Shown: positions 1-25,056 of the stretch, piece after piece
How the letters are laid out: each line of letters starts with the position of its first letter
Numbering within the stretch: position 1 is the first letter of the stretch
Assembly (NCBI RefSeq): GCF_039536245.1
Contig: NZ_BAAAYN010000006.1
Span: 62,001 to 126,000, forward strand
Direction of reading: 5' to 3'
DNA from: Cryptosporangium minutisporangium
GTDB taxonomy: Bacteria > Actinomycetota > Actinomycetes > Mycobacteriales > Cryptosporangiaceae
DNA: 64,000 nucleotides
The notes under the pieces: generated by a model
The model's input: only the letters and a program-made list of their open reading frames with translations
Databases searched by the model: none
Told to the model about the DNA's origin: nothing
Position numbers and translations under genes: made by a program

Positions 1-832
1 CACCCACGTCAAGCCCGAGAGCAGGGGCCAGGCGGGGCGGTGGCAGTCCGACTACCACGACGCGATGGTCGACCACGACAAGCTCGTCGGCGAACTGCTG
101 GGGCTGCTCGACGAGCTCGGCATCGCCGAGAACACCATCGTCGTCTACTCCACCGACAACGGTCCGCACATGAACACGTGGCCGGACGGCGGCATGACGC
201 CGTTCCGCGGGGAGAAGAACTCCAACTGGGAGGGCGCCTACCGGGTACCCGCTGTGGTGCGGTGGCCGGGACGGATCACCCCGGGCACCGTGTTCAACGG
301 GATGGTCAGCCACGCCGACTGGTTCCCGACGCTGCTGGCCGCCGCCGGCGTGCCGGACATCGTCGATCAGCTGAAGGCCGGCGTGGAGCTGAACGGCACC
401 CGGTTCAAGGTGTGCCTCGACGGCCACGATCAGACGGCGTACCTCACCGGGGAAGCCGAGGAGAGCCCACGCCGGCACTTCTTCTACGTCTCCGACGACG
501 GCGACCTGACCGCGGTGCGGTTCGCACACTGGAAGCTGGTCTTCATGGAGCAGCGGGCCCCCGGAACGCTGCGGGTGTGGGCCGAGCCGTTCACCCCACT
601 GCGGGTGCCGAAGATCTTCAACCTGCGCACCGACCCGTACGAGCGGGCCGACATCACCTCGAACACCTACTACGACTGGGTGCTCGACCACGCATGGATC
701 GTGGTGCCGATGCAGTCGTACGTGTTCAACATGCTTCAGAGCTTCGCCGAGTTCCCGCGGAGGCAGGAGCCGGCCAGCTTCAGCCTCGAGCAGGTACTGG
801 CGAAGTTGCAGACCGGGATCGGCAGCGCGTGA
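1..832 (+). CDS. Sulfatase (arylsulfatase family), C-terminal part
   Basis: The gene runs in from the left edge; its reading frame is open from base 2, so the N-terminus with the sulfatase CxPxR motif lies outside the window. What is visible (about 276 residues) has the typical sulfatase second half: a DNGPHMNTWPDGG stretch, the FRGEKNSNWEGAYRVP block that shapes the sulfate-ester site, and a late segment on the downloaded-metal side (DWFPTLLAAAG). These enzymes hydrolyse sulfate esters and need a Cys or Ser converted to formylglycine. The stop codon overlaps the GTG start of the formylglycine-generating enzyme (GTGA), so the pair is almost certainly co-translated and the upstream sulfatase is a likely substrate. 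Whether it is exported cannot be seen. The family is clear; the substrate is unknown. Confidence 0.93.
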   Translation, partial: THVKPESRGQAGRWQSDYHDAMVDHDKLVGELLGLLDELGIAENTIVVYSTDNGPHMNTWPDGGMTPFRGEKNSNWEGAYRVPAVVRWPGRITPGTVFNGMVSHADWFPTLLAAAGVPDIVDQLKAGVELNGTRFKVCLDGHDQTAYLTGEAEESPRRHFFYVSDDGDLTAVRFAHWKLVFMEQRAPGTLRVWAEPFTPLRVPKIFNLRTDPYERADITSNTYYDWVLDHAWIVVPMQSYVFNMLQSFAEFPRRQEPASFSLEQVLAKLQTGIGSA

Positions 833-1788
833 CCGAGGCGACCTTTTCGCTCGGTCATCGACCCCAGCCGGCGGACGACATGGTCTGGGTCCCCGGGGGC
901 ACCTTCCGGATGGGATCCGACGAGCACGGGCCGGAGGAGGCTCCGGCCCGCTCGGTACAGGTGGACGGGGTCTGGGTCTGCCGGACCACGGTGACGAACG
1001 CGGCTTTCACCGCGTTCGTCACCGCGACCGGCTACCGGACGGTCGCCGAGCGGCCGCTGGACCCGGCCGACTTCCCCGGCGCTCCGCCGGAGAACCTGGT
1101 GGCGGGGTCCATGGTGTTCGTCGGCACGGCGGGCCCCGTCGATCTGCGCCACCTCAGCCAGTGGTGGGCGTGGGTTCCGGGCGCCTGCTGGCGGCGTCCG
1201 GAGGGTCCGGGCAGCAATCTCGACGGCCGGGCGCACCATCCGGTGGTGCACGTGGCCTACGAGGACGCCGCGGCGTATGCGGCGTGGATCGGGCTCGCGC
1301 TGCCCACCGAGGCGCAGTGGGAGCACGCGGCGCGCGGCGGCCTCGACGGGGCGCCCTACACCTGGGGCGACGCCCCCGAGACGCCGCAGCAGCGCCGGGC
1401 CAACTACTGGCACGGCGACTTCCCCTGGCGGGCCGAGCCGGGCTACGGGGCGACCACGCCGGTCGGCTCGTTCCCGGCGAACGGCTACGGCCTGGCCGAC
1501 ATGGCTGGCAACGTCTGGGAGTGGACGCAGGACTGGTACGCCGAGCGCCGTTGGGTGGACCTGTCACCCTGTTGCGCGCCTCGTGACCCCCGTGGCGGGA
1601 AGCGGGAGCAGAGCTACGACCCCGCACAGCCACAGATCAGGATCCCCCGCAAAGTCATCAAGGGCGGCTCCTTCCTCTGTGCGGACAGCTACTGCCTGCG
1701 GTACCGGCCGGCGGCGCGGCGGCCCCACATGATCGACACTGGAATGAGCCACATCGGCTTCCGCTGCGTGTCGCGGGCCGCGCACTGA
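829..1788 (+). CDS. Formylglycine-generating enzyme (sulfatase-modifying factor)
   Basis: A 319-residue FGE-sulfatase domain protein that oxidises a sulfatase Cys to formylglycine. The domain opens at about residue 19 with VWVPGGTFRMGS and ends with the signature GGSFLCADSYCLRYR. The two cysteines (about 284 and 289) match the copper-binding, catalytic pair of bona fide aerobic FGEs, which many FGE-like proteins lack. I chose GTG 829 because it overlaps the sulfatase stop (GTGA) and because residues upstream in this frame look like the sulfatase gene read out of frame. Coupling to the sulfatase is strong context for a genuine maturase rather than an ergothioneine-type relative. Confidence 0.93.
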   Translation: MTEATFSLGHRPQPADDMVWVPGGTFRMGSDEHGPEEAPARSVQVDGVWVCRTTVTNAAFTAFVTATGYRTVAERPLDPADFPGAPPENLVAGSMVFVGTAGPVDLRHLSQWWAWVPGACWRRPEGPGSNLDGRAHHPVVHVAYEDAAAYAAWIGLALPTEAQWEHAARGGLDGAPYTWGDAPETPQQRRANYWHGDFPWRAEPGYGATTPVGSFPANGYGLADMAGNVWEWTQDWYAERRWVDLSPCCAPRDPRGGKREQSYDPAQPQIRIPRKVIKGGSFLCADSYCLRYRPAARRPHMIDTGMSHIGFRCVSRAAH

Positions 1789-1840: not shown

Positions 1841-1857
1841 TCATCCACGCCGGGTGA
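1841..1857. promoter_or_regulatory. 17-bp palindrome, copy 1 (before the DUF6069 gene)
   Basis: TCATCC-N5-GGGTGA, 63 bp before ATG 1920. It matches six other copies in front of stress-type genes between 3.4 and 11.0 kb (right arm is one base off the perfect GGATGA). Probably an operator or activator site. Confidence 0.6.
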
Positions 1858-1919
1858 GGCGAGGCGGACCGCTGGGCAGGACGCTCGGCCGGTAGCTTCC
1901 CTGCATCTCGGAGGACCAC

Positions 1920-2417
1920 ATGACCGGTATGAATGCGCCGATGACCCCCGCGCCGCGGCCGGCCGTGAACGCCGGCTTGCTCTGGGGCGGCGGCGCCGCG
2001 ACCGCTGCGGTCGCGGCGCTGATCGCGATCGTCGGCATCCTGGTCGGCCGCGGATTGTTCGACGTGGCCGTGCTGGCCCCCGAGGAGAACGGCGTCTGGG
2101 GTGACGCGTCCACCGGCTGGTACGCCGTGATGGCTGCGCTGGCCGCCCTGGTCGCGACCGGGATCGCCCACGTGCTGCTGCTCACCACGCCACGACCGAT
2201 GAGCTTTTTCGGGTGGGTGGTGGGGCTGGCGACGGTGGCCGCCATGCTCGCGCCCTTCGTGACCGACGCGAGCCTCGGCTCGCGGCTGTACACGGCCGGG
2301 CTGAACTTCGTTCTCGGCCTCGCGATCGGGTCGCTGGTCGCCGGGACGGCGAGGAGCGCGGTCGTGCGAGCCCCGGCGCGTCCGGCACCGGGGCAGGCTC
2401 CTTACGGATATCGCTGA
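1920..2417 (+). CDS. DUF6069-like integral membrane protein
   Basis: A 165-residue protein with four hydrophobic segments: residues about 24-46, 60-84, 95-115 and 125-145. The pattern of a conserved LAPEENGVWG loop after helix 1 and a TTPRPMSFFGW loop before helix 3 matches actinobacterial DUF6069 proteins as I remember them. No catalytic motif is visible and the role is unknown. Start ATG 1920 has GGAGG seven bases upstream; a second ATG lies nine bases on. A copy of the 17-bp palindrome sits upstream, linking it to the stress-type genes that follow. A strong hairpin lies just past its stop. Confidence 0.75.
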   Translation: MTGMNAPMTPAPRPAVNAGLLWGGGAATAAVAALIAIVGILVGRGLFDVAVLAPEENGVWGDASTGWYAVMAALAALVATGIAHVLLLTTPRPMSFFGWVVGLATVAAMLAPFVTDASLGSRLYTAGLNFVLGLAIGSLVAGTARSAVVRAPARPAPGQAPYGYR

Positions 2418-2426
2418 TCGGCGGGC

Positions 2427-2454
2427 GGGCCGGCGCACAGCGGTGCGCCGGCCC
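2427..2454. terminator. Strong bidirectional hairpin between convergent genes
   Basis: A perfect 12-bp GC stem (GGGCCGGCGCAC at 2427-2438 pairing with 2443-2454) with a 4-base loop, ten bases after the DUF6069 stop and 40 bases after the end of the convergent SHOCT gene. No T-run follows, as is usual in high-GC actinobacteria. Likely terminates both genes. Confidence 0.7.
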
Positions 2455-2493
2455 CCGTATCGGTGACTGCCCGTACGGAGACCGGCGCGGAAT

Positions 2494-2826
2494 CTAGGAG
2501 GCCAGGATCCGGGCCTTCTGCTGCTCCACCTCAGCGTCGGTGAGCACGCCCTGCGCCTTCAGCTCGCCGAGCTGCTTGAGCTGCTCCAGTTTCGCCGACA
2601 TGGCGTCCGGCGGCGGGGTGGGCTGCGGTGCCGGCTGTGGGGGCGGCGGCGGAGCGTAGTACGGCTGCTGCTGGGGCTGTGCGTACTGCTGCTGCGGCGC
2701 CGGCTGCTGCGCCGCCGCCTGCTGCGACCACCGGCCGGCCTGCCGCCGGGAGACGCGGTTGGACACAGTGGTCGCGGTGCCGGCGACCACCGCGGTACGG
2801 GCAATGCCACGAAGTAGACCCGGCAT
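2494..2826 (-). CDS. SHOCT-domain protein with Gln/Pro-rich linker
   Basis: A 110-residue protein in three parts: an N-terminal basic segment (MPGLLRGIARTAVVAGTATT), a low-complexity Gln/Pro/Tyr linker (about residues 30-72), and a C-terminal SHOCT helix pair with the usual KLEQLKQLGELKAQGVLTD pattern. SHOCT is a short C-terminal oligomerisation or membrane-association domain common in bacterial stress proteins. The start ATG overlaps the DUF6325 stop by one base (TGATG), with a GGGGAG ribosome site, so both genes share one transcript. The longer upstream reading in this frame is just DUF6325 out of frame and was discarded. Confidence 0.85.
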   Translation of the reverse strand: MPGLLRGIARTAVVAGTATTVSNRVSRRQAGRWSQQAAAQQPAPQQQYAQPQQQPYYAPPPPPQPAPQPTPPPDAMSAKLEQLKQLGELKAQGVLTDAEVEQQKARILAS

Positions 2827-3293
2827 CAGACTCCCCTTCCTCCCGCGACGGCCGCGCGTTCGGCGTCCGCCTCGATGTCGTCCAGCGTCGCCAGCAGTTG
2901 CTGGACCGGGATACGGCCACCCGCGACGAGGCGGGCGCCGGAACGGCGCAACGCGACGGCGAGCGGCGCCGCCCACAGGTTCTCGTAGACCAGGATCGCG
3001 GCCGCCGCGCCCGGCTCCAGGATCTCGCCGGCCTCGCGCAGGTCGTCGCCGCCGAGCATGCCCGACGACGCGCCCTGGAACACCCCCAGCCCGCTGAACT
3101 CGACGGCGCTCTCGTCCAGTGCGATGACCGTGCCGTCGACGTTCTTGCGGACGAACATGATGTCGAGGATCCGGACGATTCCCCGGTCCACCAGGTCGAC
3201 CAGGAGCGGCAGCGCAGTGCCGTCGAGGCTGCCCTGGGGGAACTCGATGCAGAGGTAGTCGACCGGACCCATCTCCTGCAGGTCGTCAGCCAT
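2826..3293 (-). CDS. DUF6325 family protein
   Basis: A 155-residue cytosolic protein beginning MADDLQEMGPVDYLCIEFP and containing the DLVDRGIVRILDIMFVRK block typical of actinobacterial DUF6325 proteins (related to DUF1269-type stress proteins). Gly-rich centre, EPGAAAAILVYENLWA near residues 95-110, acidic C-terminus. Function is unknown; homologues usually sit beside SHOCT-domain genes, exactly as here. GGAG lies just before the ATG. A perfect copy of the 17-bp palindrome (3405-3421) lies 111 bp upstream. Confidence 0.85.
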   Translation of the reverse strand: MADDLQEMGPVDYLCIEFPQGSLDGTALPLLVDLVDRGIVRILDIMFVRKNVDGTVIALDESAVEFSGLGVFQGASSGMLGGDDLREAGEILEPGAAAAILVYENLWAAPLAVALRRSGARLVAGGRIPVQQLLATLDDIEADAERAAVAGGRGV

Positions 3294-3404
3294 CGGTTGG
3301 TCTCCTGCCCATGGTTTCTCCTCGGATTCGTCGTGGACGGTGCCGGCCGGGGCGGGGGCAACGCCGGACGAAGTCCAGCGTGCGCTGTCGGGGGAGGGTC
3401 AACG

Positions 3405-3421
3405 TCATCCGCCGGGGATGA
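3405..3421. promoter_or_regulatory. 17-bp palindrome, copy 2 (before DUF6325-SHOCT)
   Basis: TCATCC-N5-GGATGA with perfect arms, 111 bp upstream of the leftward DUF6325 start. It shares the divergent intergenic region with copy 3, 66 bp away, which faces the rightward gene. Confidence 0.65.
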
Positions 3422-3470
3422 ACGGCGGGCCGCGGCAGCGCTCGCGCACGGCACAGCCGTCGCAGGGCGT

Positions 3471-3487
3471 TCATCCCTACCGGATGA
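3471..3487. promoter_or_regulatory. 17-bp palindrome, copy 3 (before the 3574 membrane protein)
   Basis: TCATCC-N5-GGATGA with perfect arms, 86 bp before ATG 3574. One copy per divergent gene in this region is a strong hint that each copy works as a promoter-proximal site. Confidence 0.65.
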
Positions 3488-3573
3488 GGCGACGGTGGCG
3501 GTTGCCGTGGAAGGTCGGCGGGACTTGGCGAGCACCTCAGTGGGGTGCGGCCACCTGGTGCGGAGGAAGAGAC

Positions 3574-5031
3574 ATGACAGCGACTCCCTCGCCCGCGACC
3601 TCACCCGGCGGGCAGCCGACAGCCGGGCAGCCGACAGCGGCGGACCAGAGCCTCGCCCCGGAGCCGCACCACGACGGGGACACCAGGCCGCCCGGGGCCG
3701 TGCCCGACGACGACGAGCTGGTAAGGCTCCGCGCCGAGGTGGCTGCGTTGCGCGAGCGTCTCGCCGCCCCGCCCCGGCAACGAACCGGAATCACGACGGC
3801 GCGTCGCTTCGTCGCCGCGACCCTGGTGGTGATCGCCGCATTCGCGCTCGTCACCAGCGTCGTCGGGCTCTGGGCGGCGCGGACCACGCTGGAGACCGAC
3901 CGCTGGGTCGCCACGGTCGCGCCGCTGCCGCAGGACCCGAAGGTGTCGGCGGCCGTCGCCGAGTACGCCACGACCGAGTTGTTCCGGGTGCTCGACGTCG
4001 ACCAGCGACTGCGCGAGGTGCTGCCGCCGCAGGCCGGGTTCGTGGTCGGACCGCTCACCGGCCAGATGCGTGAGCAGGTCCGCCGGACCGTCGACACCGT
4101 CCTGACGAGCGACCGGTTCCAGGCCATCTGGGTCGGGCTGAACCAGGAGCTCCACCAGCGTCTGCTCGCGGTGATCGAGGGGGAAAGCGACCTGATCACC
4201 GCGCGCGACGACCGCATCCAGATCAACCTGTTGCCGCTGATCAACCAGGTACTGCGAGAGCTCAGCGCCGAGCTGCCCACCCTGTTCGGCAAGCAGATCA
4301 GCCTTCCCGACCTGAGTAGCGGCGAGATCCCAGCGAACCTGCGGGCCCGCGTGGAGTCGGCCCTCGGCGTCGCCCTCCCGGCGAACTTCGCCCAGTTCAC
4401 CGTCTACGACGCCGGTCAGCTCCAGGCGGCCCAGGAGGCGGTGGCGACCGCGAAGCGGGACCTGGCGATCTTCGTCGGTGCCACCATCGTGCTGCTGCTC
4501 GCGGCGTTCGCCATCTCGCCGCTGCGCCGGCGCACCGCGGTCCAACTCGGTATCTGGCTCGTCATCGCGGCGGTGGCGATCACCGCGATCCTGCGCGCGA
4601 TCCGACGGCAGGTCCTGGCCGAGGTGCCGGACGGTGTGTATCGCGACGGCGTGGACGCCGCTCTGACCACCGTGCTCAGTTCGCTCCGGGAGCGTGGGAC
4701 GCAGCTGATCTGGATCGGGATCGCGCTCGCGCTGATCGCCTACCTGGTCGGGCCGGGAGTGCTCCCGGTCTGGCTGCGCCGACAGGTGCGCCGCGGCGCG
4801 GCGGGCGGCGTGCGCTGGACCCGGACCGGAGCCGGTGCGCTGGCCACCCGAGGGCCGGGCTTCGTCGTGCGCTACCTCGACCCGCTGCGCATCGTCGGCT
4901 TGGTGGTGGCCGGCATCCTCGCGCTGGTGTTCTCGTCGTGGACCGCCCTGCTGATCATCCTGGTCGTGCTGGTCGCGTACGAGGTGACGGTCACCCTCAT
5001 CGGCCGCGGGCAGCAGGAGCGCCTCGCCTGA
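3574..5031 (+). CDS. Integral membrane protein, function unknown
   Basis: A 485-residue protein. The N-terminus (about 1-80) is Pro/Gly-rich and cytosolic-looking with a short helical LVRLRAEVAALRERL segment. Helix 1 at about 88-108 is followed by a large extracytoplasmic region (about 110-285) rich in paired hydrophobic helices, then TM segments near 293-313, 322-345, 383-405 and a C-terminal pair at about 440-475. No enzymatic motif is visible. Similar uncharacterised integral membrane proteins are frequent in actinobacteria. GGAGG lies seven bases before ATG 3574. The upstream palindrome copy 3 ties it to the surrounding stress-type regulon. Confidence 0.75.
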   Translation: MTATPSPATSPGGQPTAGQPTAADQSLAPEPHHDGDTRPPGAVPDDDELVRLRAEVAALRERLAAPPRQRTGITTARRFVAATLVVIAAFALVTSVVGLWAARTTLETDRWVATVAPLPQDPKVSAAVAEYATTELFRVLDVDQRLREVLPPQAGFVVGPLTGQMREQVRRTVDTVLTSDRFQAIWVGLNQELHQRLLAVIEGESDLITARDDRIQINLLPLINQVLRELSAELPTLFGKQISLPDLSSGEIPANLRARVESALGVALPANFAQFTVYDAGQLQAAQEAVATAKRDLAIFVGATIVLLLAAFAISPLRRRTAVQLGIWLVIAAVAITAILRAIRRQVLAEVPDGVYRDGVDAALTTVLSSLRERGTQLIWIGIALALIAYLVGPGVLPVWLRRQVRRGAAGGVRWTRTGAGALATRGPGFVVRYLDPLRIVGLVVAGILALVFSSWTALLIILVVLVAYEVTVTLIGRGQQERLA

Positions 5032-5036
5032 CCGCG

Positions 5037-6245
5037 TCAGCGCGCTGAGCCGCGTGGCGGGGGAGACTCCGTCGGGGCGAGCGGCTCGGCCGGCCGACCG
5101 CCTGCCAGCAGTCTGTTCAGCCAGGAGGCGGACGGATCGATGTCGATCAGCAGTCCTTTGGCGAGCAGGCTCAGCGGGATCGCGAGCAGCGCGCCCAGCG
5201 GGCCGAGCATCCAGGCCCAGACCACCAGGGACAGGAACGACACGGTCGCGGACAGACCGACCGCATCGCCGACCACCTTCGGCTGAATCAGCGACTGGAT
5301 GACGAAGTTGACGGCGCAGTAGAGCAGGATCACCGTCACCATCAGGTCGGCGCCGCCCTCCAGCAGGCCCAGCAACGCCGGCGGAACCAGGCCGATCACG
5401 AAGCCGACGTTGGGTACGTAGTTCGTGATGAACGCGAGAAGGCCCCACAGCACGGGTAGCGGTACGCCCAGCGCCCACAGCATCAGGGTGTCGATGATGG
5501 CGACGATCAGTCCGAAGACCGTCGAGACCAGCAAGTACCTTCGCGTGCCGTGAGCGAACGTACGGAGCGCGCTCACCACCTGGGGGCGCTCGGCGATGGC
5601 GGAATGCAGCCGGGCCGGGAAGTGCACCGCGTCGACGCACAGGAAGAACAGCACCGCGAGCAAGAACACCCCGTTCGAGAGGACGCCCGCGAGGCTTCCG
5701 GCTACCGTCCCCACCAGTCCCGCCAGAGCGGTGGGATTGACGCCTGCGACCGCGTCGCGGATCTGCTCGGTGCTGACGCCCAAGCCGCTCAACCCCTCAA
5801 CCATGTCTTCGCGCAGCGTGGCGAATCTGGCGGCGTACTCCGGCAGCAGATCGATCAACTGGGCTGCCGAGACGATCAAAGCGCCGCCGAGGCCGATGAG
5901 GATGAGATAACTCGCGACGATGGTGGCGGTGATCGCCAGCCAGACCGGGGTCCCGTGCCGGCGCAGCCACTGGGTCAGTGGGCTCACGGTGATGGTGAGC
6001 ATCAGCGCGAGAAAGACCGGTGCGACGATGTCGGCGACTCCGCGTACGCCCGCGACGACGACCACCGCGCAGGCCGTTCCCAACAGGACTACGACGCCGC
6101 GCGGTAGTCCGGTGGGCGGGCTGGGGACCGGGGGTCCGTTACCGCGGCTGTCCGGCCACGGCGCGAACCGCTTCCGACCCGGCACCGGCCGCGGCCGTCT
6201 CCGCGGCCGGACCCAGCCGGGCCTGGCTTCCGACGTCCCTGTCAC
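5037..6245 (-). CDS. AI-2E family transporter-like membrane protein
   Basis: A 402-residue polytopic protein of the PerM/AI-2E (UPF0118) family: a double helix near the N-terminus (after about residue 45), a soluble amphipathic insert with [19 protein letters not shown], and the diagnostic [17 protein letters not shown] block followed by [11 protein letters not shown]. Members export small molecules or act as Na+/H+ antiporters. I set the start at GTG 6245, which overlaps the stop of the small gene upstream (GTGA); the much longer upstream reading is Arg/Pro-rich and unlike the family. Transcribed with that small gene, probably from the palindrome at 6554. Confidence 0.9.
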
Positions 6246-6472
6246 GGCCGCACGCGATCCGGGTCGACTGACGCGGCCGATTCGAGGCTCAGGCAGAGCA
6301 CTTCGACTCCGGATCCGTCCAGGCGGGCGAGGAGGCGATCCAGGTCGTCCTCGGTCAGCCGACCGCGGATGGTGCTCTGCCGGGGCAGGGCGCGGCAGCG
6401 CACGTCGCCGAGGGCGAGCCGCAGCACCGGACCGAGGAGGCCGCGTACCCGGACTTCGTAGCGCGCGTGCAT
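6242..6472 (-). CDS. Small protein, paralogue-like to the 10737 gene
   Basis: A 76-residue protein with no membrane segment. It aligns end to end with the 74-residue product at 10737-10961: both start with a short YxxRVxG strand ([12 protein letters not shown] here), have a hydrophobic LxxLxD/V repeat, and a C-terminal (G)LxARLxGxG segment. This looks like a small beta-alpha-beta fold; no function is known to me. GGGAG lies about nine bases before the ATG. Its stop overlaps the GTG start of the AI-2E gene. A copy of the 17-bp palindrome lies 81 bp upstream. Confidence 0.75.
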
Positions 6473-6553
6473 GGCGTGTCTCCCTGTCTGCCGGCGGCCC
6501 GGTCTCCCGGCGGAGTGCGTCCCCGAGACTGCCCGCGGCTGCGGCGCGCGACC

Positions 6554-6570
6554 TCACCCGACAGGAATGA
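6554..6570. promoter_or_regulatory. 17-bp palindrome, copy 4 (divergent region before the LuxR gene)
   Basis: TCACCC-N5-GAATGA, the weakest copy (one change in each arm). It is 81 bp from the leftward small gene and 133 bp before the rightward LuxR regulator, so it could serve either or both. Confidence 0.5.
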
Positions 6571-6703
6571 GCGGGGGAAACCGCCGAGCGCGGAGTGACG
6601 GAAGTGGTACGAGGGGTTACTACTATCCGATCCGGAGGATGCGGTGCGGTGGTGGCGGGCCGAGTCTGAACGCGGAGTGCAACCGGGTCGGCCTCCGAAG
6701 GGA

Positions 6704-9430
6704 ATGGACGTGACGACGGAACTCATCGCCAATCCGCCCGTGGCTTCAGGGGACCAACCGGCTTCCGAGGACCACCCGGACAGTTCGTTGCTCGCCTCCA
6801 AGTTCGCGATACCGGCGGCCCCGCCGTTCATGGTTTCCCGACCGGCTCTGCTGGCCCGGGTGACCGAGGCGGTACGCGGCCCGGTCACGCTCGTCACCGG
6901 TCTGCCCGGAAGCGGCAAGACCCAACTGCTCGCGTCGTGGGTGCGGAATCGCGTCGTCGACTGGCCGATCGCCTGGATCACTCTCGAGGACGGCGACGAG
7001 CACGCGTCGACGTTCTGGACGTACGTCATGGAAGGGCTGCGCCGGGCCGGTGTGCCGGTACCGCTGCTCACCCCGGCGGCGCCGGGGGCGGCGGTCAGCC
7101 GTCCGACGCTCGGGCGGCTCGCCGCCGCGATCGAGGAGCATCCCAGCCCGGTCGTCCTCGTGCTGGACGGGGTGTCGCAGCTTCCCGGCCGGGACTGGGC
7201 CGACGGCCTCGATTTCCTGCTCACCCACACGCCGAAGCTGCGACTCGTCCTCACCGGCCGATGGGACCCGCCGCTTCCGCTCTACCGCTACCGGCTCGCC
7301 GGGGAGCTCCAGGCGCTGCGGACCGCGGATTTGGCGTTCACGGCGGCCGAGGCCGGGCGGCTGATGGAGCTGCACGGCGTCATGCTGGGGAAACGCGAAC
7401 TCGACGCGCTCCTCGAACACACCGAGGGCTGGGCGGCCGGAATCCGGTTCTGCGCCTGCGTACTGCAGGGCAGCGGCGACGCGGAGCGGCTGGTGTCGAC
7501 CATCTCCGGCGGGGAGTCGACCATCGCCGAGTACTTCATCGGAGAGGTGCTCCGGCTCCAGTCGCCGTTGGTGCGACAGTTCCTCCTGGAGACGAGCGTC
7601 CTGGACACCTTCACGCCGGAACTCGCCGCCGCGGTCACCGAACGGCCGGACGCGCACCGCATGCTCGCGACCCTCAGCCGGGAGAACGCGTTCATCCAGC
7701 CGGTCGCCGAGGGTTCGGACGTGTACCGGTACCACCGGCTCTTCGCCGAGTTGTTGCGGGCTCAGCTCGCGTGGACGGAGCCGGAGCAGGTGGCGGTCCT
7801 GCATGCCCGGGCCGCCGAGTGGCTGGCCGAGAACGGTGAGCTCGTCGAGGCGGTCGGTCACGCGATCCGGGCGGGCGACTGGAGCCGGGCAGCCGCGATG
7901 CTGATCGAGGGTTACGCGGTGGGCCGGCTCCTCATCGAGGGCAGCGCCGGACGGCTCGGCGGGCTCTTCGCCGAGATGCCGGACCACCTCGAGCATGCCG
8001 AGGCGGTGATGATCCGCGCCGCACTGGCCTACGGCGACGGTCGGCCCGCCCACGCCGCCGAGCAGCTGGCGTACGCCGGGGATTTGCTCAGCGCAGGGGG
8101 CAGCGACAGCGCCGACGGGCTCACGCTCACCTGCTTCGTCCTCCAGATCCTGCTGCTCGCGGACGGAACGGACGCGGCGCAGGTGGGGGAGTTGCTCCCG
8201 GTCGTGGACGCGTTCCTCGGCATCACCCCGAAGCACCTGCTCGCTCGGCATCCGGAACTGCGGGCGCTGCGGCTCGCGGCCGAGGGAAGGGCACTCAGCG
8301 GGACCGGCGCCGTCGATGCGGCTGCGGACGTTCTCGGCGCCGCCGCGGCGGCCGTTCCGATCGGTAGCGAGTCGCTGAAGATCAGCTGTCTGGGTCACCT
8401 CGCGCTGATCGAGGCCTACCGGGGCCACCTGTCCCGCGCCGAGAGCGCGGCCCTGCAAGCCCTCGACCTGGCCGGTCAGTGCGGCCTGAGAGGACTTGAT
8501 CTCGGGCGCTGGCCGGCCGCCGCGGAGGTCGCGCTCGCCTGGGTAGCGCTCGAACGGTACGACATCGACGCCGCTGACCGGCACCTTCGCGCCGCGCAGC
8601 CGCTGTGTCAATCCGACGCCGACGCGCTCCCTGCTGCGGCGTACGCCCTCGTGAGGGCCCGCCGACTGCAGACCCGGGGAGATGTGCGGACGGCGATGGA
8701 CGTCCTGCGCGCCGGCGTCGAGAGTGGCCTGACTCCGCCGACCTGGCTGGGCCGGGAGATCGTGCTCAGCCGGGTCGGCATGTCGATCGCGGTCGGACAC
8801 CCGGACGAGCCGGCGGTCGAATCGTTCGACCGGTTCCCCGATCCGCACGCGCCCGAGGTGGAAGTCGTGCGTGCGGCACTCCTGCTCCTGCGGGGCGAGC
8901 GGCGGCAGGCGCACGAGATCGCGCGGACCGTCGCCGACGCGGCCGGGGTCTCGGTGCCGGTCTCCCTGGATGCCTGGCTCTTGCTGGCGACCATCGCCGC
9001 GAGTCAGGACGACGCGCCGGGTGCTCGCGAGGCGGTGCGCAGGGCGATGCGCGTCGCCGGGCCCGAGTCGTACCGCCGGCCGTTCCATCAGGTCTGGGGT
9101 GGGCTGCGCCGGGTGCTGCGCGACGACGAGCGGCTCATCCTGGGCAACCGTCCACTCGGAACCGAGCCGACACCGAGCCGCCTGGCGCCGGCCGATCCGG
9201 CACGTACCGATCCGGCGAACGCCGAACCGATGATCGTCGAGGCGCTGAGCAAGCGGGAGCTCGACGTCCTTCGGGGGATGGCGGAGATGCTGCCGACCGA
9301 AGAGATCGCGGCGACCATGTACATCTCGGTGAACACGGTCAAGACGCACGTGCGGAGCATCCTCCGCAAGCTGTCCGCCTCTCGGCGCAACGAGGCGGTA
9401 CGGCGGGCCCGTGCACTCAACCTGATCTGA
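6704..9430 (+). CDS. Large LuxR-family (MalT/LAL-type) ATPase regulator
   Basis: A 908-residue regulator. After a short N-terminus, an NTPase domain opens with KFAIPAAPPFMVSRPALL; Walker A GLPGSGKT is at about residues 66-73 and a Walker B-like PVVLVLDGV near 150. A long helical TPR-like middle follows, and a C-terminal LuxR helix-turn-helix with LSKRELDVLRGMAE and ISVNTVKTHVRSILRKL closes it (about 848-908). Such proteins bind ATP and an inducer, oligomerise and activate promoters. I took ATG 6704 (GAAGGGA just upstream) over an earlier in-frame start at 6644. It sits in the middle of genes carrying the 17-bp palindrome, so it is the best candidate to control them, though that is inference. 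Confidence 0.92.
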   Translation: MDVTTELIANPPVASGDQPASEDHPDSSLLASKFAIPAAPPFMVSRPALLARVTEAVRGPVTLVTGLPGSGKTQLLASWVRNRVVDWPIAWITLEDGDEHASTFWTYVMEGLRRAGVPVPLLTPAAPGAAVSRPTLGRLAAAIEEHPSPVVLVLDGVSQLPGRDWADGLDFLLTHTPKLRLVLTGRWDPPLPLYRYRLAGELQALRTADLAFTAAEAGRLMELHGVMLGKRELDALLEHTEGWAAGIRFCACVLQGSGDAERLVSTISGGESTIAEYFIGEVLRLQSPLVRQFLLETSVLDTFTPELAAAVTERPDAHRMLATLSRENAFIQPVAEGSDVYRYHRLFAELLRAQLAWTEPEQVAVLHARAAEWLAENGELVEAVGHAIRAGDWSRAAAMLIEGYAVGRLLIEGSAGRLGGLFAEMPDHLEHAEAVMIRAALAYGDGRPAHAAEQLAYAGDLLSAGGSDSADGLTLTCFVLQILLLADGTDAAQVGELLPVVDAFLGITPKHLLARHPELRALRLAAEGRALSGTGAVDAAADVLGAAAAAVPIGSESLKISCLGHLALIEAYRGHLSRAESAALQALDLAGQCGLRGLDLGRWPAAAEVALAWVALERYDIDAADRHLRAAQPLCQSDADALPAAAYALVRARRLQTRGDVRTAMDVLRAGVESGLTPPTWLGREIVLSRVGMSIAVGHPDEPAVESFDRFPDPHAPEVEVVRAALLLLRGERRQAHEIARTVADAAGVSVPVSLDAWLLLATIAASQDDAPGAREAVRRAMRVAGPESYRRPFHQVWGGLRRVLRDDERLILGNRPLGTEPTPSRLAPADPARTDPANAEPMIVEALSKRELDVLRGMAEMLPTEEIAATMYISVNTVKTHVRSILRKLSASRRNEAVRRARALNLI

Positions 9431-9443
9431 GGTCGGTGCCGGG

Positions 9444-9959
9444 TCAGTGCAGCAGCGTCTTGAGCGCGATGAAAGCCGCGCCGAAGAGGCCGGCGGTCAC
9501 CGCGGAGGCGAGCCGTTCCATCGGGCTGAGCCGACCGTTCACGCCGATCCGCCAACCCGCGAAACAGAGCAGAACGGTGGTGCAGGTCAGCGAGGCGATC
9601 TCCGCGACGATCAGCCGGGCCCCGGCCAGCCTGGCGACGAGCAGGACCAGGAGGGGCAGGCCGGAGGCGGTCACGAGCTCCCATCCGCTGGTGAGCTGCC
9701 GGCGGACGGTGCGCCAGGCCGGCCGGTGCCCCGCGTGGATGCGTTCGGCCACGATGCGGGCGTAGCGTTCGGCCGCCCAATAGATCACGAGCGTGCCCAG
9801 GACGGCCAGGGCCACGGCCGCGGCCCGCGCCGCGTGGGAGGCGACCAGCACCGCGGCCCCGACGATCAGGCCGTAGATCCCGGCCGCCGTCGCCTCCTCC
9901 GACTCGTGCGTGAGACGTACCCAGAGGGAGCGGCGGGGCCGGGAATCCGCGTCGGTCAT
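9444..9959 (-). CDS. Integral membrane protein, function unknown
   Basis: A 171-residue protein with about five hydrophobic segments (near 27-45, 48-62, 98-112, 118-135 and 150-168) and a basic loop containing AERIHAGHRPAWRTVRRQL. I recognise no family. It starts 23 bp after the stop of the DUF1269-like gene and is probably co-transcribed with it. It runs convergently toward the LuxR gene, with only 13 bp between the stops. Confidence 0.7.
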   Translation of the reverse strand: MTDADSRPRRSLWVRLTHESEEATAAGIYGLIVGAAVLVASHAARAAAVALAVLGTLVIYWAAERYARIVAERIHAGHRPAWRTVRRQLTSGWELVTASGLPLLVLLVARLAGARLIVAEIASLTCTTVLLCFAGWRIGVNGRLSPMERLASAVTAGLFGAAFIALKTLLH

Positions 9960-9982
9960 GCGCGGTAAACCTTTCGCCGCTT

Positions 9983-10480
9983 CTACGACCGCTGTTCCGG
10001 GCCGTGCAGGGCGTCCTGGAGCTCAGCCTCGGCGTCCTTGGACAACGAGGACTTGAGCACGGTGCCGCCGTACCGGCTGAGTGCCTCGACGGCCCGGTCC
10101 GGGGTGACCTTCTCGACGACCAGGAACAGGGCCGACGTACCGGGCTGGAGCATGTCCCGCACCTGCTCCTCGAACTGCTTGCTGACCGCGTTCTTGGTCA
10201 GCTTGCCGGTGAGTGCACCGAGCCCGGCACCGACCGCCATGCCCAGCACAGGGATGAAAAAGAGGATACCGAAGAAGAATCCCCAGAACATGCCCCAGCT
10301 GGTGCCGGTGCGTACCTCCTGATGACTGGTGGTGACGTGGAACTTGCCCTCCTTGTCGCGGATGATCGCTGCGATCGCGTCGGGCTGGATGATGAGGTCT
10401 TTGCTGAGCCGATGCGCCTCCAGTGCCGCAGCTGTCGCGGTGGTCTCGTCCGGATAGCCGATGGCGACAAGTGTTGCCAT
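9983..10480 (-). CDS. DUF1269-type stress membrane protein
   Basis: A 165-residue protein starting MATLVAIGYPDETTATAA, with a ferredoxin-like N-terminal domain, a central Gly-rich membrane hairpin (about 65-98, MFWGFFFGILFFIPVLGMAV) and a C-terminal domain with a VVEKVTPDRAVEAL strand-helix. This layout is that of DUF1269 family proteins, common in actinobacterial stress clusters; the role is unknown. GGAAGGG lies about ten bases before the ATG. A palindrome copy lies 70 bp upstream, and a 23-bp gap separates it from the following membrane gene. Confidence 0.85.
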   Translation of the reverse strand: MATLVAIGYPDETTATAAALEAHRLSKDLIIQPDAIAAIIRDKEGKFHVTTSHQEVRTGTSWGMFWGFFFGILFFIPVLGMAVGAGLGALTGKLTKNAVSKQFEEQVRDMLQPGTSALFLVVEKVTPDRAVEALSRYGGTVLKSSLSKDAEAELQDALHGPEQRS

Positions 10481-10550
10481 GATCCAGGGCCCTTCCCTTC
10501 AGTTCTCGTGCGTCGTGCCCCAAGTCCACCCGTGCCGGGTCGGCACGTCG

Positions 10551-10567
10551 TCACCCCCACCGGATGA
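10551..10567. promoter_or_regulatory. 17-bp palindrome, copy 5 (before DUF1269 gene)
   Basis: TCACCC-N5-GGATGA, 70 bp upstream of the leftward DUF1269-type gene. Copy 6 lies 53 bp away and faces the rightward gene, repeating the two-copy arrangement seen at 3405/3471. Confidence 0.6.
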
Positions 10568-10620
10568 GGCGCAGCCCGGTCGGGCGACCGCCGGCGTCGG
10601 TCACGATGCGGCGTCCGGGC

Positions 10621-10637
10621 TCATCCCCGCGGGATGA
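10621..10637. promoter_or_regulatory. 17-bp palindrome, copy 6 (before the 10737 gene)
   Basis: TCATCCCCGCGGGATGA. This is the most symmetric copy: the arms can be read as 7 bp (TCATCCC/GGGATGA) around CGC. It lies 99 bp before ATG 10737. Confidence 0.65.
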
Positions 10638-10736
10638 CGTGCCCCCGGTGCGATCGGCACAGGCTTAGGCCGGCGGGATCGATCTCCGGGCCGCACTACC
10701 CGGAGGTCGGACGTGGCGGGCGGAGGGAGTGCATCG

Positions 10737-10961
10737 ATGCCTGAGGCGACATATCAGCTCAGGGTCTCCGGGGTGATTCCCCCTGAACTACTGGCTGAGC
10801 TGCGCGACCTCACGGTCAGCGTGGAGCCGCCGGAGACCGTGCTACACGGATCGCTGCCGGACCAGTCGGCCGTAGTGGGACTCATCGCCCGGATCCACGG
10901 CCTCGGGCTGCACCTCGTCGAGGTGCGGCGGCTTCACCCGGACGACGGCCCGGACCAGTGA
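10737..10961 (+). CDS. Small protein, paralogue-like to the 6242 gene
   Basis: A 74-residue soluble protein, MPEATYQLRVSGVIPPELL at the start, matching the 76-residue product of 6242-6472 along its length. The start ATG 10737 has GGAGGGAG eight bases upstream and makes the two N-termini line up; GTG 10713 (GGAGG six bases upstream) is a possible alternative that would add eight residues. Function unknown. It lies between palindrome copies 6 and 7. Confidence 0.72.
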   Translation: MPEATYQLRVSGVIPPELLAELRDLTVSVEPPETVLHGSLPDQSAVVGLIARIHGLGLHLVEVRRLHPDDGPDQ

Positions 10962-10988
10962 CCGGCTCCGTCTCACTTCCCCCCGCGT

Positions 10989-11005
10989 TCGCCCGCCGGG
11001 GATGA
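10989..11005. promoter_or_regulatory. 17-bp palindrome, copy 7 (before the HdeD-like gene)
   Basis: TCGCCC-N5-GGATGA, only 37 bp before ATG 11043, with AAGGAGAG in between. The short spacing suggests a very short leader or that this copy overlaps the promoter itself. Confidence 0.55.
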
Positions 11006-11042: not shown

Positions 11043-11624
11043 ATGACGTACGACACCGAGCACCGTGCCGACCGCATCAGCGGAAACTCGGCGGATAGCT
11101 TCCGCGCCTGGAACTGGGTGCAGTTGGCCGCGGGCATCGTGACGATCGTCCTCGGCATCGTCGCGTTCGCCTGGCCCGACGCGACGTTGCGCGTGGTCGC
11201 GTTCCTGTTCGGCCTCAACTTGCTGGCGACCGGGGTGTCGCGGACCGCGCTGATGTTCTTCACCACGGGGACACCGCTGCTGCACCGGATACTCGGCATC
11301 ATCTTCGGCGTCTTCGTCGCCATCGTCGGCATCCTCTGCATGCGCAACGTCACCGGCTCCCTGGCGCTGCTGCTGGTGATCGTCGCGATCGGTTGGCTAC
11401 TCGACGGGCTCGCTGCCATCGTTCTCGCGGTCGGCTCCGGTGGGCCGGCCAAGGGCTGGCGGATCGCTCTGGGCGTGGGTGCCATGATCGCCTCGATCGC
11501 GCTGCTGGTCTGGCCCGGGCTGAGCCTGACCGCGTTCCTCTACATCGGCGCGACGACGCTGATCGTCCTCGGTGTCGGCCTGACGTACGTCGCGATCGCC
11601 GCCCTGCGTACTCGCCCCGCCTGA
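11043..11624 (+). CDS. HdeD family (DUF308) membrane protein
   Basis: A 193-residue protein with six predicted membrane helices in three pairs, starting after about residue 20 (WNWVQLAAGIVTIVLGIVAF) and containing the repeated GILxM/WPGLSLTA motif of the HdeD/DUF308 family. In E. coli HdeD is linked to acid resistance; in actinobacteria the family is widespread and mostly uncharacterised. AAGGAG lies just before the start; I used ATG 11043 rather than the adjoining GTG 11040. Palindrome copy 7 directly precedes it. Confidence 0.88.
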   Translation: MTYDTEHRADRISGNSADSFRAWNWVQLAAGIVTIVLGIVAFAWPDATLRVVAFLFGLNLLATGVSRTALMFFTTGTPLLHRILGIIFGVFVAIVGILCMRNVTGSLALLLVIVAIGWLLDGLAAIVLAVGSGGPAKGWRIALGVGAMIASIALLVWPGLSLTAFLYIGATTLIVLGVGLTYVAIAALRTRPA

Positions 11625-22336: not shown

Positions 22337-25056
22337 ATGGCGGGCACCGGGAGCGGTCTGATCGATCGGACGAGCGAGCGCGAATCGCTCGACCGGCTAC
22401 TGAACGACGCGAGTGGCGGCGTGAGCCGCGTCGTGGTGCTGCGCGGGGAGGCCGGCGTCGGCAAGACCGCCCTGCTGCGCCACCTGGTCGACCGCACCCC
22501 GGACTGGTGCGTGCTGACCTCGGTCGGCGTCGAGTCCGAGATGGAGCTCGCCTACAGCGGCCTGCATCAGCTCTGCGCGCCGCTACTGGGTGCCCTCGAC
22601 CGGTTACCGGCCCCGCAGCGTACCGCGCTCGCGACCGTGTTCGGCCTGAGCGACGGCCCGCCGCCGGACCGCTTCCTGGTGGGGTTGGCGACGCTCTCGC
22701 TGCTCGCCGACGCCGCTGACCAGCAACCGTTGCTGTGCCTGGTCGACGACGCGCAGTGGCTGGACCAGGCCAGCGCGCAGATCCTCGCGTTCGTGGCGCG
22801 CCGGGTGCTCGCCGAGCGGCTCGCGCTGGTCTGTGCGGCTCGCACCGGCACCGACGTCCTGCCGGGGCTGCCCGACCTGACCGTCGGCGGGCTCGCCGAC
22901 GCCGACGCCCACGCGCTGCTCGGACTGAGCCTGCCGGGGGTGCTGGATACCGCGGTGCGTGACCGGATCGTGGCGGAAGCCCGCGGGAACCCGCTGGCGC
23001 TGCTCGAACTGCCCCGGACCTGGCGCACGGCCGACCTGGCCGGCGGGTTCGGCGTGCCGGACGGCGCGCCGCTGATCGGCCGGATCCAGGACAGCTACGC
23101 GCGGCGCCTGCGCGAGTTGCCCCCCGAGACCCAGCTGCTCGTGCTGGTCGCCGCGGCGGAACCGCTCGGTGACCCCGGTCTGCTGCACGACGCCGCGCAC
23201 ACGCTCGGCGTCGACCTGGCCGCGACCGCGCCCGCCGTCGACGCCGGGCTGTTGCAGGTCGGGGCGCGGGTCCGGTTCGCGCATCCGCTGGTGCGGTCCG
23301 CCGCCTACCAGATCGCGTCGGCCGCCGAGCGTCAGCGTGCGCACCGGGCACTGGCGGACGCCACCGACGTCGGGACCGATCCGGACCGACGAGCCTGGCA
23401 CCGGGCGCGGGCCGCCCCCGGACCGGACGAGGAAGTCGCCGCGGAGCTGCAGCAGTCGGCGAGCCGTGCGCGGTCGCGCGGCGGATCGGCGGCCGCGGCC
23501 GCGTTCCTGACCCGGGCCACCGAGCTGACGCCGGACCGGTCGACGCGGGCCCGTCGCGCGCTGGACGCGGCGTTCGCCGCGGTCGACGCCGGCGCGTTCG
23601 ACGCCGCCCGCGCGCTCCTGCCCGTGTGCACGGTGGTGCCGGTCGACGCCTGGCACGAGGCACGAATCGACCTGCTGCGGTCGCAGCTGGCGTTCGCGTC
23701 CAGCCGCGGCAAGGAGGCAATCCCGCTGCTCCTCACCGCGGCGCGTCGGCTGGAGCCGCTCGACCTGGAGATGGCCCGCGCCACGTACCTGGACGCGCTG
23801 GTCGCGGCGGTGATCGGATCACGCCTCAACGACGGCGTCGGACCGGCGGAGGTCGCGAAGGCGGTGCGGGCGGCGCCGCGCCCGTCCGGCGGGCCGTCGA
23901 GCGGTGATCTCCTCCTGGACGCGTTCTGCGCGCTGGTCGAGGAGCGCGAGGACGCGGTCGGGACCTGCCGCGACGCGCTGGCCGCACTTCGTAGTGATCC
24001 CGAACCGAAGCTCCGTCACCTGTGGGAGAGCACGATCCTCGCGATCGCGCTGTGGGACGACGAGAGCTGGGACGCCGTGTCCGAGCGGCACATCCGGCTC
24101 GCCCGGGAGACCGGTGCGCTCGGCGAGCTGCCGTTCATGCTCGGCAGCCGCGTCCATTTCCTCGGGTACTGCGGTGATCTGTCCGCCGCCGCCGCGCTGG
24201 TCGCGGAGGAGCATTCGGTGGTCGAGGCGACGGGCTCCGGTGGTCCGGCACCGTACGGCGCGCTGTGCGTCGCCGCGTGGCAGGGCCGGGACCGCGACGC
24301 ACGGGAGCTTCTCGGCATTGCGCGGCGCGTCGCCACCGCCAGCGACGAGGGCACCGGCGTCGCTCTCACCGAGTGCTGGCACGCCCTGCTCCGCAACGGT
24401 CTCGGGGAGTACGAGGCGGCGTTCACCGCGGCGGCCCGGGCCACCGAGGATCCCAGCGAGTTCGCGACCCAGTGCTGGGGCCTTCCCGAGCTGATCGAAG
24501 CGGCTGCCCGGACCGGACGGGCCGACGTCGCCGCCGACGCCCTGGAGCGGCTGACCGAGCGCACCACCGCCAGCGGCAGCCGATGGGCACGCGGCCTGGA
24601 AGCCCGGTGCCGCGCCCTGGTGACCGGGAGCGAGGAGGACTACCGGGGGCGATCGACCAGCTGGGCCGGTCCCGTGCCCGCGCCGACGCGGCTCGCGCCC
24701 ATCTGCTGTATGGGGAGTGGCTGCGCAGGCAGAGCCGCCGGAGCGACGCTCGGCGCGAGCTGACGATCGCGCACGAGACCGCCGCCGCGATGGGCCTCGG
24801 GGGATTCGCCGAACGGGCCCGCCGGGAGCTGCACGCGCTGGGGACGCCGGTGCGGACCCGTACCCCGGAGGCGCGGACCGACCTGACCGCCCAGGAGGCG
24901 CAGATCGCACGGATGGCCCGCGACGGCCTGTCGAACCCGGAGATCGGCGCGCAGTTGTTCCTCAGCCCTCGAACGGTCGAGTGGCACCTGCGAAAGGTGT
25001 TCGGAAAGCTCGGCATCACGTCCCGCCGCCAGCTCCGGAGCGCGCCGACCCTCTAG
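22337..25056 (+). pseudogene. Large LuxR-family AAA regulator, broken by a one-base frameshift
   Basis: Two frames together encode a typical 906-residue AAA-LuxR regulator. The first frame (22337 to about 24650) carries Walker A GEAGVGKT (residues 37-44), Walker B LLCLVDDAQWLD and the long TPR-like middle. The rest, including AHLLYGEWLRRQSRRSDA and the LuxR helix-turn-helix (LTAQEAQIARMARDGLSNPE, SPRTVEWHLRKVFGKLG), is in the -1 frame and ends at 25056. The switch falls at a run of five G (24645-24649); one more G restores EEDYRGAIDQLGRSRA. As given, the protein ends at 24763 after an out-of-frame tail and lacks its DNA-binding domain. It could be real decay or a homopolymer sequencing error. 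Confidence 0.85.

Follow-up and report, generated by a model that had tools for sequence, protein, structure and literature searches.

The stretch of Cryptosporangium minutisporangium DNA analysed here (positions 62,001 to 126,000 of contig NZ_BAAAYN010000006.1, 64 kb in all, hereafter the window; its contig is called C6 below) carries near its left end a repeated 17-bp palindrome, TCATCC-N5-GGATGA, and in the midst of these repeats a gene for a large ATP-binding regulator of the MalT type (6704–9430). The palindromes are very probably the activator boxes of this regulator, which is itself the likely counterpart of ACSP50_3915 of Actinoplanes sp. SE50/110. In that organism, Droste et al. 2020 (PMC7567727) report TCATCC and GGATGA separated by 5 nt in front of 17 transcription starts within a region of 51 genes, with the 3′ end of the motif 34.4 ± 1.0 nt before the start, where it overlaps the -35 position. 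Deletion of malT (ACSP50_3915) lowers the expression of 42 of the 51 genes, and its overexpression raises that of 39; the authors link the motif to the MalT box of Escherichia coli, and the binding of MalT is their inference. Their regulon (‘MRLGR’) responds to maltose versus glucose, and its transcripts rise during growth. The motif in the window is an independent rediscovery of this published motif: it is real, well placed and largely already known. No other publication tying it to a MalT-like regulator is found among the matches listed, which does not show its absence from print. A first-pass annotation of the window, made from the letters of the DNA, had named the LuxR/MalT-type ATPase as the probable binder and knew of no named regulator with this site. 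The former proposal is well supported by the genetic tie between the same motif and Actinoplanes MalT together with the clade membership described below, and the missing name is MalT. An anonymous repeat becomes a predicted regulon with a named and genetically studied regulator and with exact predicted promoters.

Mismatches in the window were counted against the consensus. The seven copies noted at first pass (1841, 3405, 3471, 6554, 10551, 10621 and 10989) are all confirmed: three are perfect (3405, 3471 and 10621), two have one mismatch and two have two, and independent gene calls place every copy in intergenic DNA, 37–111 bp from the start it faces, as had been stated. With at most one mismatch there are 5 sites against 0.10 expected, and with at most two there are 7 against 1.67; counts as high as 5 and 7, respectively, did not arise in any of 100 shuffles. 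At three mismatches the count is uninformative, being 18 against 21.16 expected and not above chance. A scoring matrix that covers the site, the next three bases and the -10 region was built from 216 sites of other genomes only, and this foreign-trained matrix recovers all seven copies together with an eighth at 6623–6639. At a score of 14 it finds 14 site-orientations in the window against 0.7 expected from resampled sequence, and beyond the eight no site in the 64 kb reaches 12. The claim that the motif occurs nowhere else in the window thus holds for further sites of at least 12 but overlooked the degenerate eighth site, and the claim that divergent pairs have two copies, one per gene, extends to a third pair (6472/6704) once that site is counted; the 6554 site serves the leftward unit of this pair, which encodes a 76-aa protein and an AI-2E family transporter. 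The nearest further site lies at C6:61241, about 760 bases to the left of window position 1, and the cluster continues leftward.

The sites stand at a fixed distance from a predicted -10 element. A stack was made of 250 oriented intergenic sites with at most two mismatches, taken from 40 named loci, which were picked after motif counts and helix types had been seen, and from regions of the C. minutisporangium genome itself. Among the 125 sites with at most one mismatch, G follows the site at a frequency of 0.58 at +1 and 0.82 at +2. Of the oriented sites, 24 of the 31 from this genome and 165 of the 219 foreign ones (216 distinct sequences) have the A and T of a -10 element paired at offset 24 or 25, and the count at other offsets is 0–8. 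When the same sites are read away from the gene, the pair is met in 53 of 249, part of which are presumably sites that serve divergent genes. The predicted transcription start therefore falls about 35 nt past the site, which agrees with the distance measured in Actinoplanes. In the window, the pair stands at offset 24 after five of the seven copies (1841, 3405, 3471, 6554 and 10621) and after the eighth. Intergenic sites outnumber those in coding sequence by 260 to 63, though 90% of the sequence is coding, in loci that were picked after motif counts.

The regulator resembles E. coli MalT in two of its parts. The ATPase part of that protein (8bob) is matched over residues 29–394 (E 5.6e-31), with 27% identity over residues 29–392, and the helix-turn-helix shows 34% identity over 848–905. 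The closest named relatives are Actinoplanes and Paractinoplanes proteins of 62–70% identity; in further species of the two genera, the only relative is about 50–55% identical. A tree built without the helix-turn-helix, using gene-call proteins for the named loci, nests the window protein in a clade of 15 rows (itself and 14 from Actinoplanes or Paractinoplanes) with support of 100. A paralogue encoded on contig C23 groups with a protein of a congener; a grouping of the window protein with these two is rejected (approximately unbiased test, p 1e-6). Because it sits in the Actinoplanes clade and grouping with its own genus is rejected, the window copy was probably acquired from an Actinoplanes-like donor; no tRNA that might mark an island was found in the window or in stretch L016, which adjoins it on the left. 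In 13 of 15 loci of this group (the 14 from Actinoplanes or Paractinoplanes plus L095, a cut-off locus) a second MalT-like gene with another type of helix follows the first on the same strand, and the window protein matches the first gene of this pair (compare ACSP50_3915 and ACSP50_3917). On the basis of clade and gene order, the 6704 protein is likely orthologous to ACSP50_3915. The second genes, seen at L073–L083, L085 and L116 in Actinoplanes and Paractinoplanes, have a recognition helix of the form HMR..Y and probably read a different site. Elsewhere in the window, a called 808-aa protein beginning MAGTGSGLIDRTSERESL (22337–24763) appears by eye to be another large ATP-binding regulator, and no site of score at least 12 lies upstream of its gene.

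The eighth site suggests that the regulator acts on its own gene. This box, CTATCCGATCCGGAGGA ... GAGTCTGAA at 6623, recurs in close form in 11 of the 15 Actinoplanes-type loci, 67–72 bp ahead of the regulator; among the remaining clade loci, L074 has a box at 150 bp, L081 and L085 have weaker boxes at 35 bp, and L109 has none within 300 bp of the called regulator start. In a survey of the loci of 79 named MalT-like genes (34 from Micromonosporaceae and 45 others), a site of score at least 15 precedes the regulator in 28 of the 34 and in 8 of the 45. A score of 15 in the 300 bp upstream is common in these regions, being reached by 272 of the 637 genes of the Micromonosporaceae loci and by 171 of the 788 genes of the other loci, and is thus not a strict criterion by itself. 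A box of this kind also precedes the genes of the C23 paralogue and its congener, the paralogue on contig C9 has only a weak candidate (14.1), and those paralogues of this genome whose helix is of the other type (L034–L038) are without one. From the predicted box and the similar Actinoplanes boxes, the regulator gene would be one of its own targets, and a distinctive weak box is retained before it in many Actinoplanes-type loci.

We infer direct binding, activation in this organism and a role for an inducer as follows. The regulator, when bound by ATP and loaded with inducer, would multimerise, and its C-terminal helix-turn-helix would read two inverted GGATGA half-sites. The site would overlap the -35 position, with the A of a NANNNT -10 element following at 24–25 nt. 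Given this overlap and fixed distance, we propose that the bound regulator brings in RNA polymerase and so activates every unit, including, through the weaker box at 6623, its own gene. The regulon would cover the block in the window, the stretch to its left and regions on other contigs.

This extent is seen in the genome as a whole, which has 26 sites with at most one mismatch (7 exact) and 19 strict TCAYCC-N5-GGRTGA sites. Of these, 17 and 13, respectively, fall within 25 kb of a MalT-like gene, an area that makes up 2.3% of the genome, against 1 of 29 sites of a control with an N6 spacer, and the 13 strict sites are spread over four contigs. Random placement genome-wide, which would have spoken against the first-pass proposal, is not what is seen. 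That proposal of one regulon is supported; it is not local, since strict sites also lie on C4, C9, C19, C23 and three more contigs, and its ‘stress’ role is a guess. Fifteen stretches were fetched, and L016–L022 hold most gene-facing sites. Predicted targets in these include DUF1269, DUF7144, DUF6325 and DUF6069 proteins, two BrkB proteins, a SulP transporter, a class II glutamine amidotransferase, M20 and M24 peptidases and an NhaA-type antiporter. In one predicted unit on C9 (L021:9578–12602), a site stands ahead of a gene call for a DUF1269-like protein (59 aa), behind which lie the genes of an amino-acid permease and an arginine deiminase. On C19, a site of score 18.7 belongs to a GH15 glycosidase. 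A sulfatase gene starts just to the left of the window, behind the site at C6:61241 (L016:17330–18000 and window 1–1788), and overlaps the gene of a formylglycine-generating enzyme (829–1788). The sulfatase contains CTAGR, which we take to be the sulfatase active-site signature, and the two genes are predicted to share one MalT-type unit. Judged by their protein families, the targets look like functions of membrane, ion and amino-acid type that belong to some nutritional state.

Several observations weigh against assigning the sites to the 6704–9430 regulator. The genome-wide count with at most one mismatch is no higher than that of the N6 control (26 against 29), although exact copies number 7 against 1; the raw count is not enriched and the argument therefore rests on placement. 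A reversed-pattern control gives 0 in this genome, but it is a lenient one. Two of the window sites, 10551 and 10989, are without the full -10 pair. Among 199 genomes of the order, the exact motif occurs in 39, the regulator gene (E up to 1e-60) in 48 and both in 16, a modest association (p 0.007, kinship uncorrected), and 23 genomes have the motif without the gene. Finally, the paralogues on C23 and C9 have recognition helices (THVRSIFRKL and THVRSILRKL) of the same pattern as that of the window protein and could bind some or all of the sites. In favour of the assignment, the exact motif and a relative of the regulator (at the same E threshold) coincide in 3 of the 5 genomes of the organism's own family, and the remaining 2 have neither. 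Across the order, 17 of the 63 exact sites are no more than 40 kb from such a regulator gene, or 11 of 56 without the C. minutisporangium genome.

The paralogues give rise to the alternative that survives best. The sites might be read mainly by the C23 or C9 protein, or two or three MalT-like regulators whose sensors differ might share them, such that one box integrates several inputs. The box before the C23 paralogue's own gene speaks for this, and on C19 the sites carry TCATCC-type halves, although the MalT-like gene detected on it encodes a helix of the other type. The window sites nevertheless surround the window regulator, and the homologous units of Actinoplanes surround its closest relatives, an arrangement that is also compatible with sharing. 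We regard this alternative as possible but rather doubtful. Binding by an orphan response regulator resembling BldM, whose DNA-binding domain is of the LuxR/NarL type, is very unlikely. In Streptomyces, where BldM is an atypical response regulator, its group I site is the palindrome TCACcC-gnnc-GgGTGA, which resembles the window sites in having nearly the same half-sites but differs from them in its spacer of 4 bases rather than 5 (PMC4125116). Strict N4 forms (TCATCC, TCAYCC, TCACCC, TCACCT and TCACCY) number zero in the 65 loci examined for them out of the 79, whereas N5 forms are frequent; with one mismatch allowed, 2 N4 sites are met against 149 N5 sites in the 79 loci, and BldM is set aside as the binder on spacer length. 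That the palindromes are without function and owed to chance or base composition is scarcely credible: the genome count by itself would permit it, but placement near MalT-like genes, the intergenic bias, the fixed -10 offset and the retention of sites before homologous genes argue strongly against it.

The proposed activator boxes of the MalT-type regulator have relatives in other actinobacteria. The 149 sites with at most one mismatch at spacer 5 are held by 46 of the 79 loci, and spacers of 3, 4, 6 and 7 give 3, 2, 9 and 0. Such sites are present in 33 of 34 Micromonosporaceae loci, in all those of Geodermatophilaceae (3/3), Kutzneria (3/3), Nocardiopsis (3/3) and Nocardioides (1/1), in some of Kribbella (1/3) and Georgenia (1/2), in 1 of 25 Streptomycetaceae loci and in none of Actinomadura (0/3) or the unplaced loci (0/2), which suggests that the system described for Micromonosporaceae reaches further families. 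The loci can be divided by the recognition helix of the regulator. In 29 loci of the THL..Y class (22 Streptomycetaceae, 3 Nocardiopsis, 3 Actinomadura and 1 unplaced), a strict variant, TCACC[CT]-N5-[AG]GGTGA, occurs at 48 intergenic sites, and the -10 pair stands at offset 24 or 25 in 38 of the 47 that can be oriented. Of the 182 half-sites in the 45 TH[VI]R..L loci, 93 have T at position 4 or A at position 14, against 4 of 104 in the 29 THL..Y loci. There are exceptions: the TH[VI]R..L loci L127, L134 and L104 have no site with at most one mismatch, the Nocardiopsis loci L107, L111 and L119 of the THL..Y class hold 1, 1 and 2 such sites, 9 of the 45 TH[VI]R..L loci are without an intergenic site that fits the degenerate pattern, and 5 of the 79 loci fall in neither class. 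Because the link between helix and half-site largely follows deep splits of the tree, it is no evidence of repeated coevolution. We lean slightly towards the view that MalT-type regulators of Actinomycetota share one promoter architecture, namely a 17-bp inverted repeat with a strict 5-base spacer and a -10 element at a fixed distance, in which a few residues of the recognition helix set the half-site (TH[VI]R..[LF] for TCA[TC]CC and THL[RK]..Y for TCACC[CT]). If true, this would permit general target prediction for a large and poorly mapped family of regulators.

The sites and units of the window are listed in the table. The first-pass annotation held that every unit served encodes a small membrane or unknown protein of a stress type, which does not stand, as a 485-aa protein and the regulator itself are also among those targeted. 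Homologues of the targets in the 34 Micromonosporaceae loci differ in how often a site accompanies them. DUF6069 homologues are present in 10 loci, each with an upstream site of score at least 15 (10/10), homologues of the 76-aa protein in 18, again all with a site (18/18), and DUF1269 homologues in 22, with a site in 21. The 485-aa protein has homologues in 15 loci and a site directly upstream in only 3 of them, and the 171-aa protein has homologues in 16, with a site of their own in 5. The 74-aa protein is represented in 4 of the 34 loci (1 with a site) and in 20 of the 45 others (15 with a site). In Streptomyces loci (among L096–L150), a relative of this protein of about 65–90 aa lies near the MalT-like gene, many of them with a box resembling TCACCT-N5-GGGTGA. 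The SHOCT match of the protein at 2494–2826 reaches 26.1 bits, slightly below the cut-off of 27, and DUF6325 has no mention in the literature searched.

Table 1. Predicted MalT-type sites, their target units and the regulator gene in the window.
Feature	Position	Strand	Details
Site TCATCC-N5-GGGTGA, then GG	1841–1857	+	predicted -10 GACGCT at 1880–1885; 62 bp before DUF6069 gene
Target gene, DUF6069 protein	1920–2417	+	Pfam PF19545
Target unit, DUF6325 protein (2826–3293) then SHOCT-like protein (2494–2826)	2494–3293	-	Pfam PF19850 (DUF6325)
Perfect site, faces left	3405–3421	-	predicted -10 CACGCT at 3377–3382; 111 bp from 3293 start
Perfect site, faces right, then GG	3471–3487	+	predicted -10 GAAGGT at 3510–3515; 86 bp from 3574 start
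Target gene, 485-aa protein, no Pfam family	3574–5031	+	gene call and Pfam
Target unit, 76-aa protein (6242–6472) then AI-2E family transporter (from 5037)	5037–6472	-	Pfam PF01594
Site TCATTC-N5-GGGTGA, faces left, then GG	6554–6570	-	predicted -10 CAGTCT at 6526–6531
Eighth site CTATCC-N5-GGAGGA, degenerate, predicted autoregulatory box CTATCCGATCCGGAGGA	6623–6639	+	score 17.9; -10 GAGTCT at 6662–6667
Regulator, MalT-type large ATP-binding LuxR-family activator, 908 aa	6704–9430	+	GerE domain 847–902
171-aa protein, no Pfam family	9444–9959	-	downstream of DUF1269 gene, same strand; possible operon member
Target gene, DUF1269 protein	9983–10480	-	Pfam PF06897
Site facing DUF1269 gene	10551–10567	-	score 23.1; A24/T28 -10 pair absent at usual distance
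Perfect site, faces right	10621–10637	+	predicted -10 CAGGCT at 10660–10665
Target gene, 74-aa protein	10737–10961	+	gene call
Site TCGCCC-N5-GGATGA facing HdeD-like gene	10989–11005	+	score 14.8; A24 present, T28 absent
Target gene, DUF308 (HdeD-like) protein	11043–11624	+	Pfam PF03729

Comparison with known MalT systems highlights both similarities and differences. The E. coli MalT box has the core GGA(T/G)GA and overlaps the -35 position (as quoted in PMC7567727). This core fits the half-site found here, the ATPase and helix-turn-helix of the two regulators match and their recognition helices are similar. Unlike in E. coli, the sites in C. minutisporangium are inverted with a 5-base spacer, the sensor part of E. 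coli MalT has no significant BLASTP match to the 6704–9430 protein, and no genes for maltose uptake or breakdown are among the window units. The resemblance to the MalT regulon of Actinoplanes is closer, although here the units are distributed across C6, C9, C19, C23 and C4, on four of which they lie beside MalT-like paralogues, and no second MalT-like gene directly follows the window regulator. Shared with Actinoplanes are the 17-bp motif itself, its promoter position (here predicted), the group to which the regulator belongs and a region rich in membrane proteins and proteins without assigned function. The likeness extends to targets that appear in Table 1 of the Actinoplanes study (PMC7567727), such as a class II glutamine amidotransferase, an amino-acid permease, an arginine deiminase and peptidases, and the permease and arginine deiminase of the C9 unit are the same pair as ACSP50_3920 and ACSP50_3921 of the Actinoplanes region.

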